Below, piece after piece: positions 6,523 through 39,600 of a DNA stretch of 48,270 nt (position 1 is the first letter of the stretch; every line of letters begins with the position of its first letter). Source of the stretch: Saccoglossus kowalevskii (Eukaryota; Hemichordata; Enteropneusta; Harrimaniidae). Made by a program: the position numbers and the translations under genes. Location: NCBI RefSeq assembly GCF_000003605.2, contig NW_003135334.1, positions 545,219-593,488 on the forward strand, written 5' to 3'. The notes beneath the pieces are model-generated. The model ran no database searches. It was given only the letters and a program-made list of their open reading frames with translations, and was not told where the DNA came from.

Positions 6523-7480
6523 TGAACTGACAGTGTAAAAGTAAGTGTTAAACATTCAGCTTGTCAATTGCTCTTGGTACAAAAAAACATTACCACGTTT
6601 TTCTTCAATATCATCATATATTTTGTTCATGTATGTATATATTAAATAAACACATATTATTCTGAAAAGGCATTTCCTTTGTCTAGTTTGTTAATGAATT
6701 GATTTACATTATAGACCATCAATGGAATGGTTCCATCTGCAAGTCTAGTTTGAGTGAAAAACTAAAGTGTTATGCAAAATTGCAAGCTATCTTGCTTACT
6801 GACTGACTGACTCAGTAAAATTATTTAGGCTAGTAATAAATGTGTTAATTAAGAACAAAACAAGAATACACATACATCATAATGTAATTTTCATCTTTAG
6901 TAAATTTTGAAAACAATTCTCAATACACTTACTTAATGAGAAAACAGAGTAGTTCTATGCAGATATAAAATATCATGTGATGATCTGATCACTTTATGGC
7001 ATCTGAAAGAGCATGGATTACCAAAAGTCTAATGGAATGATCTAATTTAGCATTCAATGTGTAGCCCCAGCTAGTCTATTCCAGGAATTTTTGGACTGAA
7101 CGAATTAATAAAAAAAATACTAATAATTGCAACTCATCTCATTGATTATGCAATACCATGACATTTTAGTTTGTGACGTTATCATACAGGCATGCCACAT
7201 CAAACTTTTGATTTTCCCCCAAAGGGGCAACTATCTGATTCTACAAATCAGAAGACATTATTTGGTTAAAAATATCTCCCAATAAGGACACTTTTACCCG
7301 ATATTGTCTTGGTACTCGGACTCATAATGGGAGTAAAATTTGTTGACTTTCAGAATCATATTGTCAATATCTTCGGACTGACTCCCTATCAAGTATCCCG
7401 ATCGACAGAAATCGCCCGATTGGAGCAAATCCTCCATTTCAGGCAAATAGCTAGCTGATTGGTTGAAAATACTCGTTCAC
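6523..7480. other. Intergenic sequence, no feature seen
   Basis: This is AT-rich unique sequence. I see no coding exon, RNA gene, tandem repeat or inverted pair. A weak 15-bp inverted word lies at the ATGGAATGGTTCCAT near 6720. Confidence 0.5.
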
Positions 7481-15913: not shown

Positions 15914-16750
15914 CTCACTGCTATGCCACGTTGGGATCACTGCTATGTTACGCTGGAGTCACTGCTATGTCACGTTATGGTCACTGCTATGTCACGTTAT
16001 GGTCACTGCTATGTCACTTTGGGGGTCACTGCTATGTCACTTTGGGGGTCACTGCTATGTCACTTTGGGGGTCACTGCTAAGTCACGTTGTGGTCACCGC
16101 TATGTCACTTTGGGGGTCACTGCTAAGTCACGTTGTGGTCACCGCTATGTCACTTTGGGGATCACTGCTATGTTATGTTGTGGTCACCGCTATGTCACTT
16201 TGGGGTCACTGATATGTCATGTTGCGGTCACTGCTATGTTACGTTGGGGTCATTGCTAAGTCACGTTGTGGTCACCACTATGTCACGTTGGGGTCACTGC
16301 TATGTCACGTTGGGGTCACCGCTATGTCACATTAGAATCACTGCTAAGTAATGTTGTGGTCACCGCTATGTCACGTTGGAGTCACTGCTATGTCACTTTG
16401 GGGGTCACTGCTATGTCACGTTGGAGTCACTGCGAAGTAACGTTGTGGTCACCGCTATGTCACGTTGGGGTCACCGCTATGTCACGTTGGGGTCACCGCT
16501 ATGTCACGTTGAGGTCACCGCTATGTCACTTTGGGGGTCACCGCTATGTCACGTTGGGGTCACCGCTATGTCACGTTGTGGTCACCGCTATGTCACGTTG
16601 GGGTCACTGCTATGTCACGTTGTGGTCACCGCTATGTCACGTTGTGGTCACCGCTATGTCACGTTGGGGTCACTGCTATGTTACGTTGGGGTCATTGTTA
16701 TGTCACATTGGGGTCATTCTTATGTTACATCGGGGTTACTGATATACCGC
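15914..16750 (+). repeat. 22-23-bp minisatellite, about 38 copies
   Basis: The unit is TCACYGCTATGTCACGTT plus GGGG or TGG (22 bp), with a 23-bp variant that has TTTGGGGG. Because 22 is not a multiple of three, one repeat frame passes through all three reading frames and returns after 66 bp. All three forward frames therefore stay open with the same cycling peptide, and none of these is a gene. Copies at both ends are more diverged than those in the middle. Confidence 0.96.
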
Positions 16751-18590
16751 TTTGAAATATATAGGAAAATGCAGGAATACAGTAATAATTGGGCAATGTA
16801 CAAACTAAGTCATAAACACACACATAAATAAGATAAGGCATAGTGATGAATCTACTAGTTACTAACAACTACACGAACATATACATTGGCGCTTTTATCC
16901 GACTGTTTACTGGCGTTCCTGACGCCATGCATGATTGTCTGCGTCACCACAATTATATTCACTATTTTGCATATGTATGTAAGAGCTAAAAATAAAATAA
17001 AATATGATAAATTGGCTTGAATGACACGAATGTCTCACAACCACGTGCGGCGTTACAGTGTGATTAGACGTATTGTCGTCACATATAGGGCGTGACGTTT
17101 TATGTCGAACATACATAAAGCGGGAGAGACGTCACCTGCGCTTGCGTCAGTCCCTCAACAGGACTGTGGATGGCCATAGCGTGTCATTGTTTACAAACAA
17201 GCGTCTACCCATGAGCCTTTGCGTTTTTAGCGTGTGTTGTTATCATCGCTTGAGACTCAATTCCCGTGCGTGCGCAGGTGACGACCACCCCGCTTTAAAT
17301 GTAAAGCGCCTTGTGAGGGCATTGACGTCATTAATTACGGTTATAATCCGCGTAGAGTGGTAGGCAAAATTACATTCTGTATTCTTGTGCATGTAAAAAT
17401 ATTTTACAATACCCAGCACACAGTGATGGATCTCACTTCCGGTCTGAATAATTAGAACCATGAGTTCTAAAGAAAGTCATGATATTGTGATATATATTCC
17501 AAGTTATGACAATCTATTATTGTGGCGTTGTCCGACCCAGGGTGGGATGGGTTAGAGGTGGCGTGGCGTTTAATAATTTTGGAATATTCGGAACCAATTT
17601 AATATTATATTGTTTACCTGATAGCATTTCTTATTCTGGTCTTATAATCGCAAATCGTAGCGTAACAGTCGAGATGAGGAAGGGGTGGGACGGTGGGAGT
17701 TATATATCACCTTTGACTGGTGTGGGATATATAGGGTGATACGTAGAACGTAATGATACCCAGTGAAATATCATTTCAACTAGTTTATTAAATAAGGCAG
17801 AATTAAAATAATATACGGGGAAAAAATCCTTCCGGCTTTAATACTTAGCACAGTTCTTCTACGCCCTCCCAGAGTTTTTAATGGCCCACTCTAACAACAA
17901 GGTTATATGCCTGTGGGAACTTTTATTTTATTATGGCTTGTCCTGCTGTCAATCAGTCTGAAATTGGGGAATTCCTAGCGGACTTCTTGATTTGCAATAG
18001 TGAGTTAGGGATTCAAAGTTATCAGTTCTCTCCTCCCCATTTTTATCAACGGATACAACCTGGGTTACGAGAGGTTAAATGGATTCGCGTAGAGAGCTAG
18101 TCTTTTTGTGCAATACACAAACTCCGTCATTTTTCCAAAGCACTATAGAATAGAAAGAAGGGAAATGTACAATTATGTTAAGTTGAGTTCCAATGGAACC
18201 TAAGGGTAGAAAATCATCATATCACATACCAAATAGCTGACTTTGCAAACTTTGCGAATTGTCAGAAAGCCAACAAACGCGGAGAATACTAAATTATTTA
18301 AATTCGTTATATGGTGTACTATGTATGAAGTCATGGTCACATACTATGCCATACAACGTTATTAAACTGCACTAAGCAGAGTTTAGTTTCTCATACTACG
18401 GCATATGCAATCCTTTTTTTAGAGGGCAAAGTTTAACACGTGTTTGAACTGGGTGTAGTTTAGTTTTTAAACATAAACTGAACTGATCGCCTTGAACTGT
18501 CCGGCTGACTGCGAAAACTAGTTTTATTTGATGGTTCCTGCTGAAGATTTGCGTTGGTAGAACACAATTAGAAAATAATAATAATAATCC
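16751..18590. other. Intergenic sequence
   Basis: No gene is recognised. The 17040-17360 part is less AT-rich, with a CCACGTGCGG word near 17041, overlapping forkhead-like words TTGTTTACAAACAA near 17189 and a perfect TGACGTCA at 17323-17330. The open frames 17073-17363 and 17506-17739 resemble nothing known. Confidence 0.45.
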
Positions 18591-36234: not shown

Positions 36235-36288
36235 GGAGTGGGTTTACGATATTAAAACTAGTTGTTGCATAGCAACGATTTGGCTCTG
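36235..36288 (+). repeat. Inverted repeat, left arm (element tail)
   Basis: This 54-bp segment, from GGAGTGGGTTTACGATAT to GATTTGGCTCTG, matches the reverse complement of 36903-36955 with one single-base indel and no substitutions. It includes the last codons and stop of the GIY-YIG frame. Confidence 0.92.
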
Positions 36289-36683
36289 TGTCTACAGGAA
36301 GAAATAAGTTCATTTTTTAAAATTAAACTACAGTAATGTGGTTGGAAAATTATAATATATTTCTCTCTAATGCATAAGTTGCAACGTTTGCTTGAATTAT
36401 TGTATGGTGCAGCACGCGATAACACTCTCCATTTAATGTCATAATGGATGTTATTGTCTTTTAATGACCAAGCGTATTTACTGAGCTCTGTTGCATTTCT
36501 TAATGATTGGTTGCGTAGCGATGCTGTGTGTCGTCTGTACCGGGTTTTAAATTCATTTCCTGTTAGTCCCACATATGTTTCACACTTGTCTTGCCGTCTG
36601 ATATTAGCTTGGTAAACCAAGGCCGATTGTAAATAATTTCCGTCTAAGGGACATGCAGATTTCTTACGGCAGTTACATAATCT

Positions 36684-36731
36684 GTTAATCCATGGAGGTA
36701 AAAAGAGATCTTTTTACCTCCATGGTTAATC
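36684..36731. mobile_element. Palindromic excision footprint, 34 bp, with 7-bp direct repeats
   Basis: The 34-bp palindrome at 36691-36724 has 16-nt perfect arms CATGGAGGTAAAAAGA around a 2-nt centre (GA). It is flanked by GTTAATC on both sides (36684-36690 and 36725-36731). It interrupts the conserved Cys-rich linker of the Penelope-like protein, so it is an insertion. Thirty-four equals two times 17, the number of terminal bases that P-element transposase leaves on each side of a donor site. Confidence 0.8.
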
Positions 36732-36808
36732 TAAATTTAAATAGTAAGTTGGTTTTTTTTTTTGATTGCAGATTATTTGTTTTATGTTATTCGTACAACT
36801 ATAGGTTA

Positions 36809-37573: not shown

Positions 37574-37876
37574 TACAAAGTATACAGTGCAATAATAATA
37601 ATCATTTGAGAATACGGTTTGGCAGGCAGACATACCGGTAGGTAGCAAGCAAGTATATGCAATATATAGGTAGGTTGGCATGTATGCGGGTAGGTAAGTA
37701 GACTAGTTAGTTGGTGTAAGGCAGGGATAGAATGGGGTGATTTAGAATAGATTGGTCTATTACGGATAAGTTTGAATTTGAGTATGAATTGGAATATAGG
37801 TCAGTTGAGGATAACTTGGAAAATAGTGGGGGTTTGAAATATGGAATATGGTGGAGTATAGATGAGAATATGGGGA
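37574..37876 (+). repeat. Decayed left flank of the 27-bp minisatellite
   Basis: Irregular TAGGTAGGT words (37636-37700) are followed by GAATTGGAATATAGGTCAG, GATAACTTGGAAAATAG and GAATATGGTGGAGTATAGA-like units. These approach the sequence of the homogeneous array. Confidence 0.6.
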
Positions 37877-39360
37877 GTTTAGTATAAACTGGTATAAAGG
37901 TGGGTCAAGTATAAACTGGTATAAAGGTGGGTTGAGTATAAACTGGTATAAAGGTGGGTCAAGTATAAACTGGTATAAAGGTAGGTTGAGTATAAACTGG
38001 TATAAAGGTGGGTCAAGTATAAACTGGTATAAAAGTGGGATGAGTATAAACTGGTATAAAGGTGGGTCGAGTATAAACTGGTATAAAGGTGGGTCGAGGA
38101 TAAACTGGTATAAAGGTGGGTCGAGTATAAACTGGTATAAAGGTGGGTCGAGTATAAACTGGTATAAAGGTGGGTCGTGTATAAACTGGTTTAAAGGTGG
38201 GTTGAGTATAAACTGGTATAAAGGTGGGTCGAGTATAAACTGGTATAAGGGTGGGTCGAGTATAAACTGGTATAAAGGTGGGTCGAGTATAAACTGGTAT
38301 AAAGGTGGGTCGAGTATAAACTGATATAAAGGTGGATTGAGTATAAACTGGTATAAAGGTGGGTTGGGTATAAGCTGGTATAAAGGTGGGTTGAGTATAA
38401 ACTGGTATAAAGGTGGGTCGTGTATAAACTGGTATAAAGGTGGGTCGTGTATAAACTGGTATAAATGTGGGTTGAGTATAAACTGGTATAAAGATGGGTT
38501 GAGTATAAACTGGTATAAAGGTGGGTCAAGTATAAACTGGTATAAAGGTGGGTTGAGTATAAACTGGTATAAAGGTGGGTCAAGTATAAACTAGTATAAA
38601 GGTGGGTTGAGTATAAACTGGTATAAAGGTGGGTTGAGTATAAACTGGTATAAAGGTGGGTCAAGTATAAACTGGTATAAAGGTGGGTCAAGTATAAACT
38701 GGTATAAAGGTGAGTAAAGTATAAACTGGTTTAAAGGTTGGTCAAGTATAAACTGGTATAAAGGTGGGTTGAGTATAAACTGGTATATAGGTGGGTTGAG
38801 TATAAACTGGTATAAAGGTGGGTTGAGTATAAACTGGTATAAAGGTGGGCTGAGTATAAACTGGTATAAAGGTGGGTTGAATATAAACTGGTATAAAGGT
38901 GGGTCAAGTATAAACTGGTATATAGGTGGGTTGAGTATAAACTGGTATAAAGGTGGGTTGGGTATAACCTGGTATAAAGGTGGGTTGAGTATAAACTGAT
39001 ATAAAGGTGGGTTGAGTATAAACTGGTATAAAGGTGGGTTGAGTATAAACTGGTATAAAGGTGGGTTGAATATAAACTGGTATAAAAGTGGGTCAAGTAT
39101 AAACTGGTATATAGGTGGGTTGAGTATAAACTGGTATCAAGGTGGGTTGGGTATAAACTGGTATAAAGGTGGGTTGAGTATAAACTGGTATAAAGGTGGG
39201 TTGAATATAAACTGGTATAAAGGTGGGTCAAGTATAAACTGGTATATAGGTGGGTTGAGTATAAACTGGTATAAAGGTGGGTTGGGTATAAACTGGTATA
39301 AAGGTGGGTTGAATATAAACTGGTATAAGGGGGTTGTGTATAAACTGATATAAAGGTGGG
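37877..39360 (+). repeat. 27-bp minisatellite, about 55 copies, with higher-order structure
   Basis: The unit is 27 bp: AGTATAAACTGGTATAAAGG followed by TGGGTTG or TGGGTCA/G. Because 27 is a multiple of three, both strands stay open as nine-residue cycles (INWYKGG- on the plus strand), broken by occasional point changes to stops at 38322, 38591 and 38997. In the right half, variants (TATATAGG, TTGGGTATA, TTGAATATA) recur in a fixed order every five to seven units, which shows duplication of 135-189-bp blocks. There is no coding evidence. Confidence 0.97.
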
Positions 39361-39600
39361 TTGAAAATACGTTGGGATATAGGAGTGTTGAGGACAAGCT
39401 GAAATATAAGTGGCTTGAGAAAAGTAGGTGTGTTTATGACGAGTCGGAATATAGATGGGTTGAGTATAAGTTGGGATACTTGCGGATTAAGGATGAATTG
39501 GAATATAAGTGGGGTGAGGTTTAAATGGAATATGGGTAGATCGAGGATAAGTTGGAATATGGTTGGGTTAAGTTGTAAGGGTTGAGAATTTGAGCGGGCT
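39361..39600 (+). repeat. Decayed right flank of the 27-bp minisatellite
   Basis: Copies such as TTGGGATATAGGAGTGTTGA, TTGAGTATAAGTTGGGATA and GAATTGGAATATAAGTGGGG become progressively less like the array consensus. Confidence 0.6.

Follow-up and report, generated by a model that had tools for sequence, protein, structure and literature searches.

A palindrome that is very likely a natural excision footprint of a P-superfamily transposon with 7-bp target duplications, in the genome of Saccoglossus kowalevskii

Introduction

The closest described counterpart of the scars reported here is provided by the P element of Drosophila, which has 8-bp target duplications and whose cleavage has a 17-nt stagger, the other strand being cut at the element border (excerpted text of PMC7776569). 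The junctions that excision of this element leaves behind include blunt joins that keep both tails in full (17+17), joins at TA or AT, and templated insertions (PMC2895639 in its available parts, including its Table 1). No study of genome-wide P-superfamily excision footprints was found in the open-licence literature, available in part, which is weak evidence of absence; in the available text, the word 'footprint' is absent from the paper on Galileo (PMC4168063), which has 'excision' once, and likewise from the paper on Anopheles MITEs (PMC1562414).

The palindrome in the window and its empty sites

The window, i.e., the whole stretch of 48,270 nucleotides that was analysed, is part of contig C2715 of the 572-Mb assembly. 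It contains a 34-bp palindrome at 36691-36724 (window letters), composed of perfect 16-nt arms (CATGGAGGTAAAAAGA / TCTTTTTACCTCCATG) and the centre GA, with perfect copies of GTTAATC on both sides (36684-36690 and 36725-36731, window letters), and the description given in the initial annotation holds here letter for letter. The site is read as follows:

36684..36690, + strand: left 7-bp target-site duplication GTTAATC, read directly; it resembles the palindromic target motif of sister sites, TTnGTTNAACnAA
36691..36708, + strand: left transposon end remnant, 18 nt, CATGGAGGTAAAAAGAGA; AGGAG comes next in full elements
36709..36724, - strand: right transposon end remnant, 16 nt, the left-end sequence inverted and 2 nt shorter
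36725..36731, + strand: right 7-bp target-site duplication GTTAATC, read directly
36732..36743, + strand: 12 nt, TAAATTTAAATA, in place of ~30 other nt in paralogues; an extra change beyond the footprint alone
36258..36713, - strand: open frame of the interrupted host repeat, its first residues encoded by the palindrome; no Pfam match

With high confidence, we regard this palindrome as the footprint of an excised cut-and-paste transposon, nonautonomous and belonging to the P superfamily, namely a member of a family of ~940 bp ('family A') with ends CATGGAGGTAAAAAGAGAAGGAG.... The length of 34 bp had been taken for 2 x 17; since the retained end is 18 nt and the window copy is best read as 18+16, this match is coincidental. 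Exact copies of the 16-nt arm occur in the 572-Mb assembly at 84 forward and 83 reverse places, as against 0 for the same pattern read backwards, which rules out a chance palindrome.

The interrupted host repeat is one that we tentatively take to be Penelope-like, based on the CxC / GIY-YIG-like look of frame 36258-36713(-). Of the initial proposal of a Penelope-like host, the interrupted coding frame stands, while support from Pfam was not obtained, the search with this frame giving no match at E values up to 0.1. The palindrome is absent from all 11 window paralogues that were fetched, so that the outcome named beforehand as adverse to a footprint, i.e., all Penelope-like paralogues carrying the palindrome, did not occur. 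The two paralogues that were translated (L114 and L119) are open across the site, whereas the window has stops inside the palindrome, which therefore breaks a formerly continuous frame. In the paralogue alignment the left boundary of the palindrome falls directly after GTTAATC or a variant thereof. To the right of the second GTTAATC, however, the window has 12 nt where the paralogues have ~30 nt, and because of this replacement the anticipated difference of exactly 41 bp was not recovered, the palindrome itself being absent as anticipated.

A clean empty site was identified for another footprint, L148, in which the palindrome CATGGAGGTAACCTCCATG lies between copies of ACCAGAC: 71 of its 73 joined bases align gap-free, at 91.5%, to L008:1715-1785, which has a single ACCAGAC and lacks the palindrome. 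An empty homologous site with one target copy, as expected of a P-type excision footprint, is thus present (L148 versus L008).

Elsewhere in the window, positions 37760-39486 and 16260-16831 hold long tandem arrays in which several frames are open (LYQFILDPP-like and SRWGHRYVTL-like repeats). The mitochondrial COX1 belonging to this genome is an open frame when TGA is translated as Trp.

A genome-wide set of probable scars

Further copies of the palindrome, for which the initial annotation had suggested a search, were sought with two patterns. The first, CATGGAGGTA-N(2-32)-TACCTCCATG, returned 187 genome places and the shorter, CATGGAGG-N(0-6)-CCTCCATG, returned 48, the reversed control giving 0 in either case; as six palindromes fit both, the two patterns together yield 229. 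For 88 distinct palindromes the flanks were compared, these being the 50 places listed for the longer pattern, 9 from the exact-arm search, 8 from a further search, 20 of the 48 from the short pattern (including all 14 of its commonest product) and the window itself; the sample follows contig order and closeness to the queries and is non-random, and L133 (mutated right arm, 7/7 duplication) was left out of it.

The flanking duplication is perfect (7/7) in 61 of these 88 palindromes, 6/7 in 17, 5/7 in five, 4/7 in two and 0-1/7 in three. When left and right flanks were paired at random, 0.8% of the pairs reached 7/7 and 1.6% reached 6/7 or better, and when the duplication frame was moved by 1-5 nt, the count was 0 of 59 at each step. 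As in a P-type footprint, the remnants of two ends, neither exceeding the stagger in length, face each other head to head between target duplications. The 61 footprints with a perfect duplication share a 13-bp palindromic target preference, TTnGTTNAACnAA, centred on the duplication. One footprint of family D, L077 (C560:146475-146512), is of the 19+19 type and is located ~130 bp from a THAP match (C560:146643-146915).

Full-length elements with the same ends

Among the matches listed for the exact 16-nt end (100 of 167), ten inverted pairs were found, 732-1879 bp apart, and perfect 7-bp duplications surround all ten. The first 16 nt of these pairs are identical by selection; beyond them, the pairs agree in the repeat CATGGAGGTAAAAAGAGAAGGAG and over as many as 33 nt, with small end differences in L034, L037, L038, L040 and L043. 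Their interiors represent one family of ~940 bp, i.e., family A, aligned pieces of more than 300 nt being 78-97% identical. A search with one family A copy returned at least 99 matching pieces, and since 40 of 58 candidates were scored, copy numbers of this family are lower bounds. Nested within the 1879-bp family A element L038 is an insertion of ~1 kb, which a repeat of GGACCGCACC borders.

Perfect duplications were likewise observed around L006, which has one substitution in an end, and around all four additional pairs whose ends are related (a substitution being present in one end), while L158, a family B element with a degenerate right end, has a 6/7 duplication as judged from its printed flanks. 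In total, 15 of the 16 nonautonomous pairs checked (0.7-1.9 kb) have a perfect 7-bp duplication and one has 6/7, a count that is separate from other pairs seen in the genome searches, among them family D pairs. The terminal repeats of the elements measure 23-33 bp. Target duplications combined with terminal inverted repeats, as characteristic of the P superfamily (7-8 bp), are present in the nonautonomous pairs and were not seen at the transposase-bearing locus L032. The footprint reading had been declared vulnerable to there being no longer element with these ends anywhere in the genome, and such elements, with 7-bp duplications, were found.

A 64-aa open frame of family A (e.g., C695:100606-100797(-)) is matched at 43 genome places with 53-100% identity, mostly free of internal stops; the majority of these are known family A places, while the matches on C451 and C3220 are absent from both of our place lists. 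No longer element was seen among these 43 matches. The open frames of family A were considered as pieces of a transposase and rejected, there being no Pfam match above cut-off.

Link to P transposases

The P-type RNase H domain (PF21787) matches 13 places in the genome, and twelve regions of ~10 kb covering these were examined. The pattern CATGGAGCTAAAAAAAGAAGGAG, with up to three mismatches, occurs at 129 genome places (reversed control 1), two of which are inside the twelve regions, where ~0.03 would be expected from 129 in 572 Mb. At L027 the match is exact and lies ~2.1 kb upstream of the transposase domain, and at L024 it has one substitution and lies on the far side. When all 2264 candidate starts in the twelve regions were scored against eight ends of the nonautonomous families, six ends stood out in five regions, i.e., L024, L025, L027, L029 and both sides of L032. 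Their scores are 18-43, compared to 16 for the next independent place; the highest score among shuffled stretches was 18, obtained for L027, which itself scores 30, and every end scored above all of its own 2000 shuffles. All six point inward to the transposase match. The remaining seven regions, including that of the best match, L022, contain no such end.

The likeness extends past the repeat, as a family C end aligns with L024 over 58 nt (88%, E 1e-14), L155 with L032 over 70 nt (76%) and L157 with L027 over 86 nt (74%). As to protein domains, L024 has RNaseH_N (3.5e-19), RNaseH_C (4.4e-6) and GBD (0.0022, below its cut-off), while the P HTH domain was matched at L032 (7.5e-5) and L027 (8.2e-6). 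The split RNase H with a GTP-binding insertion domain that marks P transposases, for which GTP serves as cofactor, was accordingly found at loci with same-kind ends and not within family A. L022, without such ends, has RNaseH_N (1.1e-27), RNaseH_C (1.2e-6) and GBD (6.7e-5, just below cut-off), together with one weak match to a solved P transposase (E 0.0048). Its 610-codon open frame, L022:4064-5893(+) on C1630, carries the best of the 13 P-type RNase H matches.

None of the twelve 10-kb regions contains a transposase flanked by a convincing pair of ends with 7- or 8-bp duplications that match. The ends of L032 are 4.6 kb apart and both present, with no duplication around them; the missing other ends of L024 and L027 were searched for and not found, and no clear termini emerged when three transposase regions were searched for inverted repeats. 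Weak end pairs at L027, L030 and L032 (10 of 14 end bases alike) were taken for chance, and C1630:18250 was rejected as a separate family F copy. An autonomous partner of family A was not found in the genome matches to the family A element and its 64-aa frame. Since no complete autonomous copy was found, the assignment of family A to the P superfamily rests on its ends rather than on an intact element; judged from these sequences, that assignment is strongly indicated, and the P-superfamily origin of the scar is very likely.

The initial annotation had pointed to a THAP-domain P transposase as the enzyme to look for, an expectation that was not borne out: not one of the 70 THAP matches listed shares a contig with any of the 13 RNaseH_N matches at a distance of 100 kb or less. 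As exons can escape the THAP search and the contigs are in part short, this absence limits P membership only in part. The one transposase N-terminus that was read, L024:5586-6419(-), carries a ZAD-like CRLC...CLPC zinc finger and has no THAP match; weak matches that do not reach the cut-off are to zf-AD (0.0032) and RAG1_imp_bd (0.014). On the other strand, a second gene converges on the transposase at three loci (L024:389-2113(+); L032:5610-6680(-) plus, at the right end, 7201-7315(-); L022:8039-9091(-)). It has a PHD finger near its far end (PF00628 at 1.7e-6 in L024, by eye in L032), and its frames, for which there is no Pfam match, share the motif VLRYVAGFVPHKL / ALRCFAGYVPFKLL.

The same-kind ends in five of the twelve P-transposase regions, six of six pointing inward and with homology past the repeat, speak against an excision footprint of a different superfamily that shares CA...TG ends, 7-bp duplications and an 18-nt stagger. 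Such an origin is unlikely, even if the paired full elements are nonautonomous, with open frames that have no Pfam match above cut-off, and no intact autonomous partner was found. Other superfamilies are set aside by their duplication length. The P elements of Drosophila, Anopheles and zebrafish do have 8-bp duplications (excerpts of PMC7776569, PMC10983969, PMC1562414), yet Galileo, which belongs to the P superfamily, has mostly 7-bp duplications and the palindromic target GTATTAC (PMC4168063, in the part available), and a long stagger is counted among the features that distinguish P in the available text of PMC7776569.

Probable position of the inner cut

The arms of the footprints were compared with the repeat of their own family (A, B, D or F), resulting in 60 arms of at least 15 nt. 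Thirty-seven of these end exactly before the conserved AGGAG and 22 end 1-4 nt short of it, while a single arm runs 1 nt beyond this border and none further, although palindromes as long as 52 nt would have fitted the pattern. In a sample of 50 family A arms of at least 16 nt, which overlaps the former and in which each site contributes two arms, one per strand, 34 end at 18 nt, 13 at 16-17 nt, three fit 19 nt and none 20 nt. Families A, B and F reach 18 nt, and the family D repeat CATGGAGGTAGAAAAGAGAAGGAG, which is one base longer, reaches 19 nt in six of eight arms (~5 sites). Because family D, with its extra base, leaves 19 nt instead of 18, it is suggested that the inner cut is tied to AGGAG and not to a set distance from the end. 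Judging from where the scars stop, the stagger would be 18 nt, or 19 nt in family D.

In flies, P excision is frequently followed by repair synthesis that stays incomplete and is concluded by end joining (available parts of PMC2895639), and the palindromes might by analogy be internally deleted elements from interrupted gap repair instead of joined cut ends. This is very unlikely, as interrupted repair predicts breakpoints anywhere, whereas none of the 60 long arms passes the AGGAG wall by 2 nt or more.

The P-type cleavage position has been measured in Drosophila, and the present scars suggest, without experiment, the stagger of an unstudied branch, the dependence of which on an internal motif can be tested.

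Proposed course of excision and repair

For the palindrome as a footprint of joined cut ends, the following course is proposed. A family A element inserted into the host repeat and duplicated GTTAATC, as is evident from the structure. Its transposase would then have excised it by cutting one strand at the element border, as is presumed by analogy with P, and the other 18 nt inside, before AGGAG, a position suggested by where the scars stop. The donor gap would have been left with two identical, non-complementary 18-nt 3' tails, and host end joining would have closed it, with 18 nt of the left end and 16 nt of the right end kept; the 18+16 join can be read in the window, while the repair pathway is a probable one.

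As the two tails would be identical, they could pair only at self-complementary spots. The short-product pattern was searched because a TA-joined product was expected, and its commonest product, CATGGAGGTACCTCCATG, which accounts for 14 of the 48 places, is the one expected when two identical tails pair at the self-complementary TA. The duplications at these 14 copies are 7/7 in seven, 6/7 in five, 5/7 in one and 4/7 in one. Other joins are of the types 18+18, 18+16 and 18+17 or have an added T or TA, and L045 has a second partial end copy as filler. Over two hundred similar scars reflect this process, and their joins are blunt, of the microhomology type or provided with filler. They represent a natural sample of germline joining of identical, non-complementary 3' tails.

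The many centres, unequal arms and fillers also bear on the idea that the palindromes are tiny mobile elements, transposed as units of 18-50 bp: a transposed unit would keep its centre, and Drosophila P is said to require end segments of 138 and 216 bp (as cited in the available text of PMC1562414), so that this idea is highly improbable, notwithstanding the target duplications, the presence at over two hundred places and the recurrence of some centres (GA/TC, GATC, TA). Foldback can make long perfect palindromes, but the chance of an assembly or foldback artefact or of a chance palindrome is negligible given the 0 matches of the reversed patterns, the clean empty site and the duplication of at least 6/7 outside the palindrome at 78 of 88 sites, the last of which also bears out the initial view that the structure is not simply a foldback.

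Reading the palindrome as an excision footprint of a P-like transposon with 7-bp duplications, as first put forward in the initial annotation, is hence supported by the longer elements, the 229 palindromes and the ends in P-transposase regions. Palindromes of this kind are open to being mistaken for regulatory sites or foldbacks, and full-length repeat models used in annotation may overlook them.

Comparison with known systems

This type of footprint is already known, and what is new are the 18/19-nt offset, the 7-bp duplications and the large natural numbers. A bolder reading, which we offer tentatively and at less than even confidence, is that the scars form a natural excision catalogue of a P branch that has a ZAD-like rather than a THAP N-terminus, a second, convergent PHD gene and an inner cut anchored on AGGAG. 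The convergent gene layout at the P-transposase loci recalls that of the RAG1L/RAG2L transposons (PMC7204232, as excerpted).

With zebrafish Pdre2 / THAP9 the present system shares a P-type transposase with internally deleted relatives, whereas Pdre2 / THAP9 differ in their 13-bp terminal repeats, 8-bp duplications and THAP domain (PMC10983969 and PMC7776569, in the parts available). The P transposase of Drosophila is able to excise Pdre2 as well (PMC10983969). The P-derived MITEs of Anopheles gambiae are similar in that nonautonomous families share their ends (<100 bp) with a P element, while they differ in having 8-bp duplications and known P proteins with a THAP domain (available text of PMC1562414). 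Galileo resembles the elements described here in its mostly 7-bp duplications and in a palindromic target that reaches past the duplication, although this target is GTATTAC as opposed to GTTNAAC here, and some of its duplications are 8 bp (excerpts of PMC4168063); its terminal repeats are long compared to 23-33 bp here. The junctions of Drosophila P are like the present scars in that target duplications enclose two inverted end remnants, with the same junction classes (PMC2895639, in its available parts); they have 17-nt tails and 8-bp duplications, in contrast to 18 nt (19 nt in family D) and 7 bp here, and they were induced in the laboratory (same source), whereas the scars of S. kowalevskii constitute a natural genome record.
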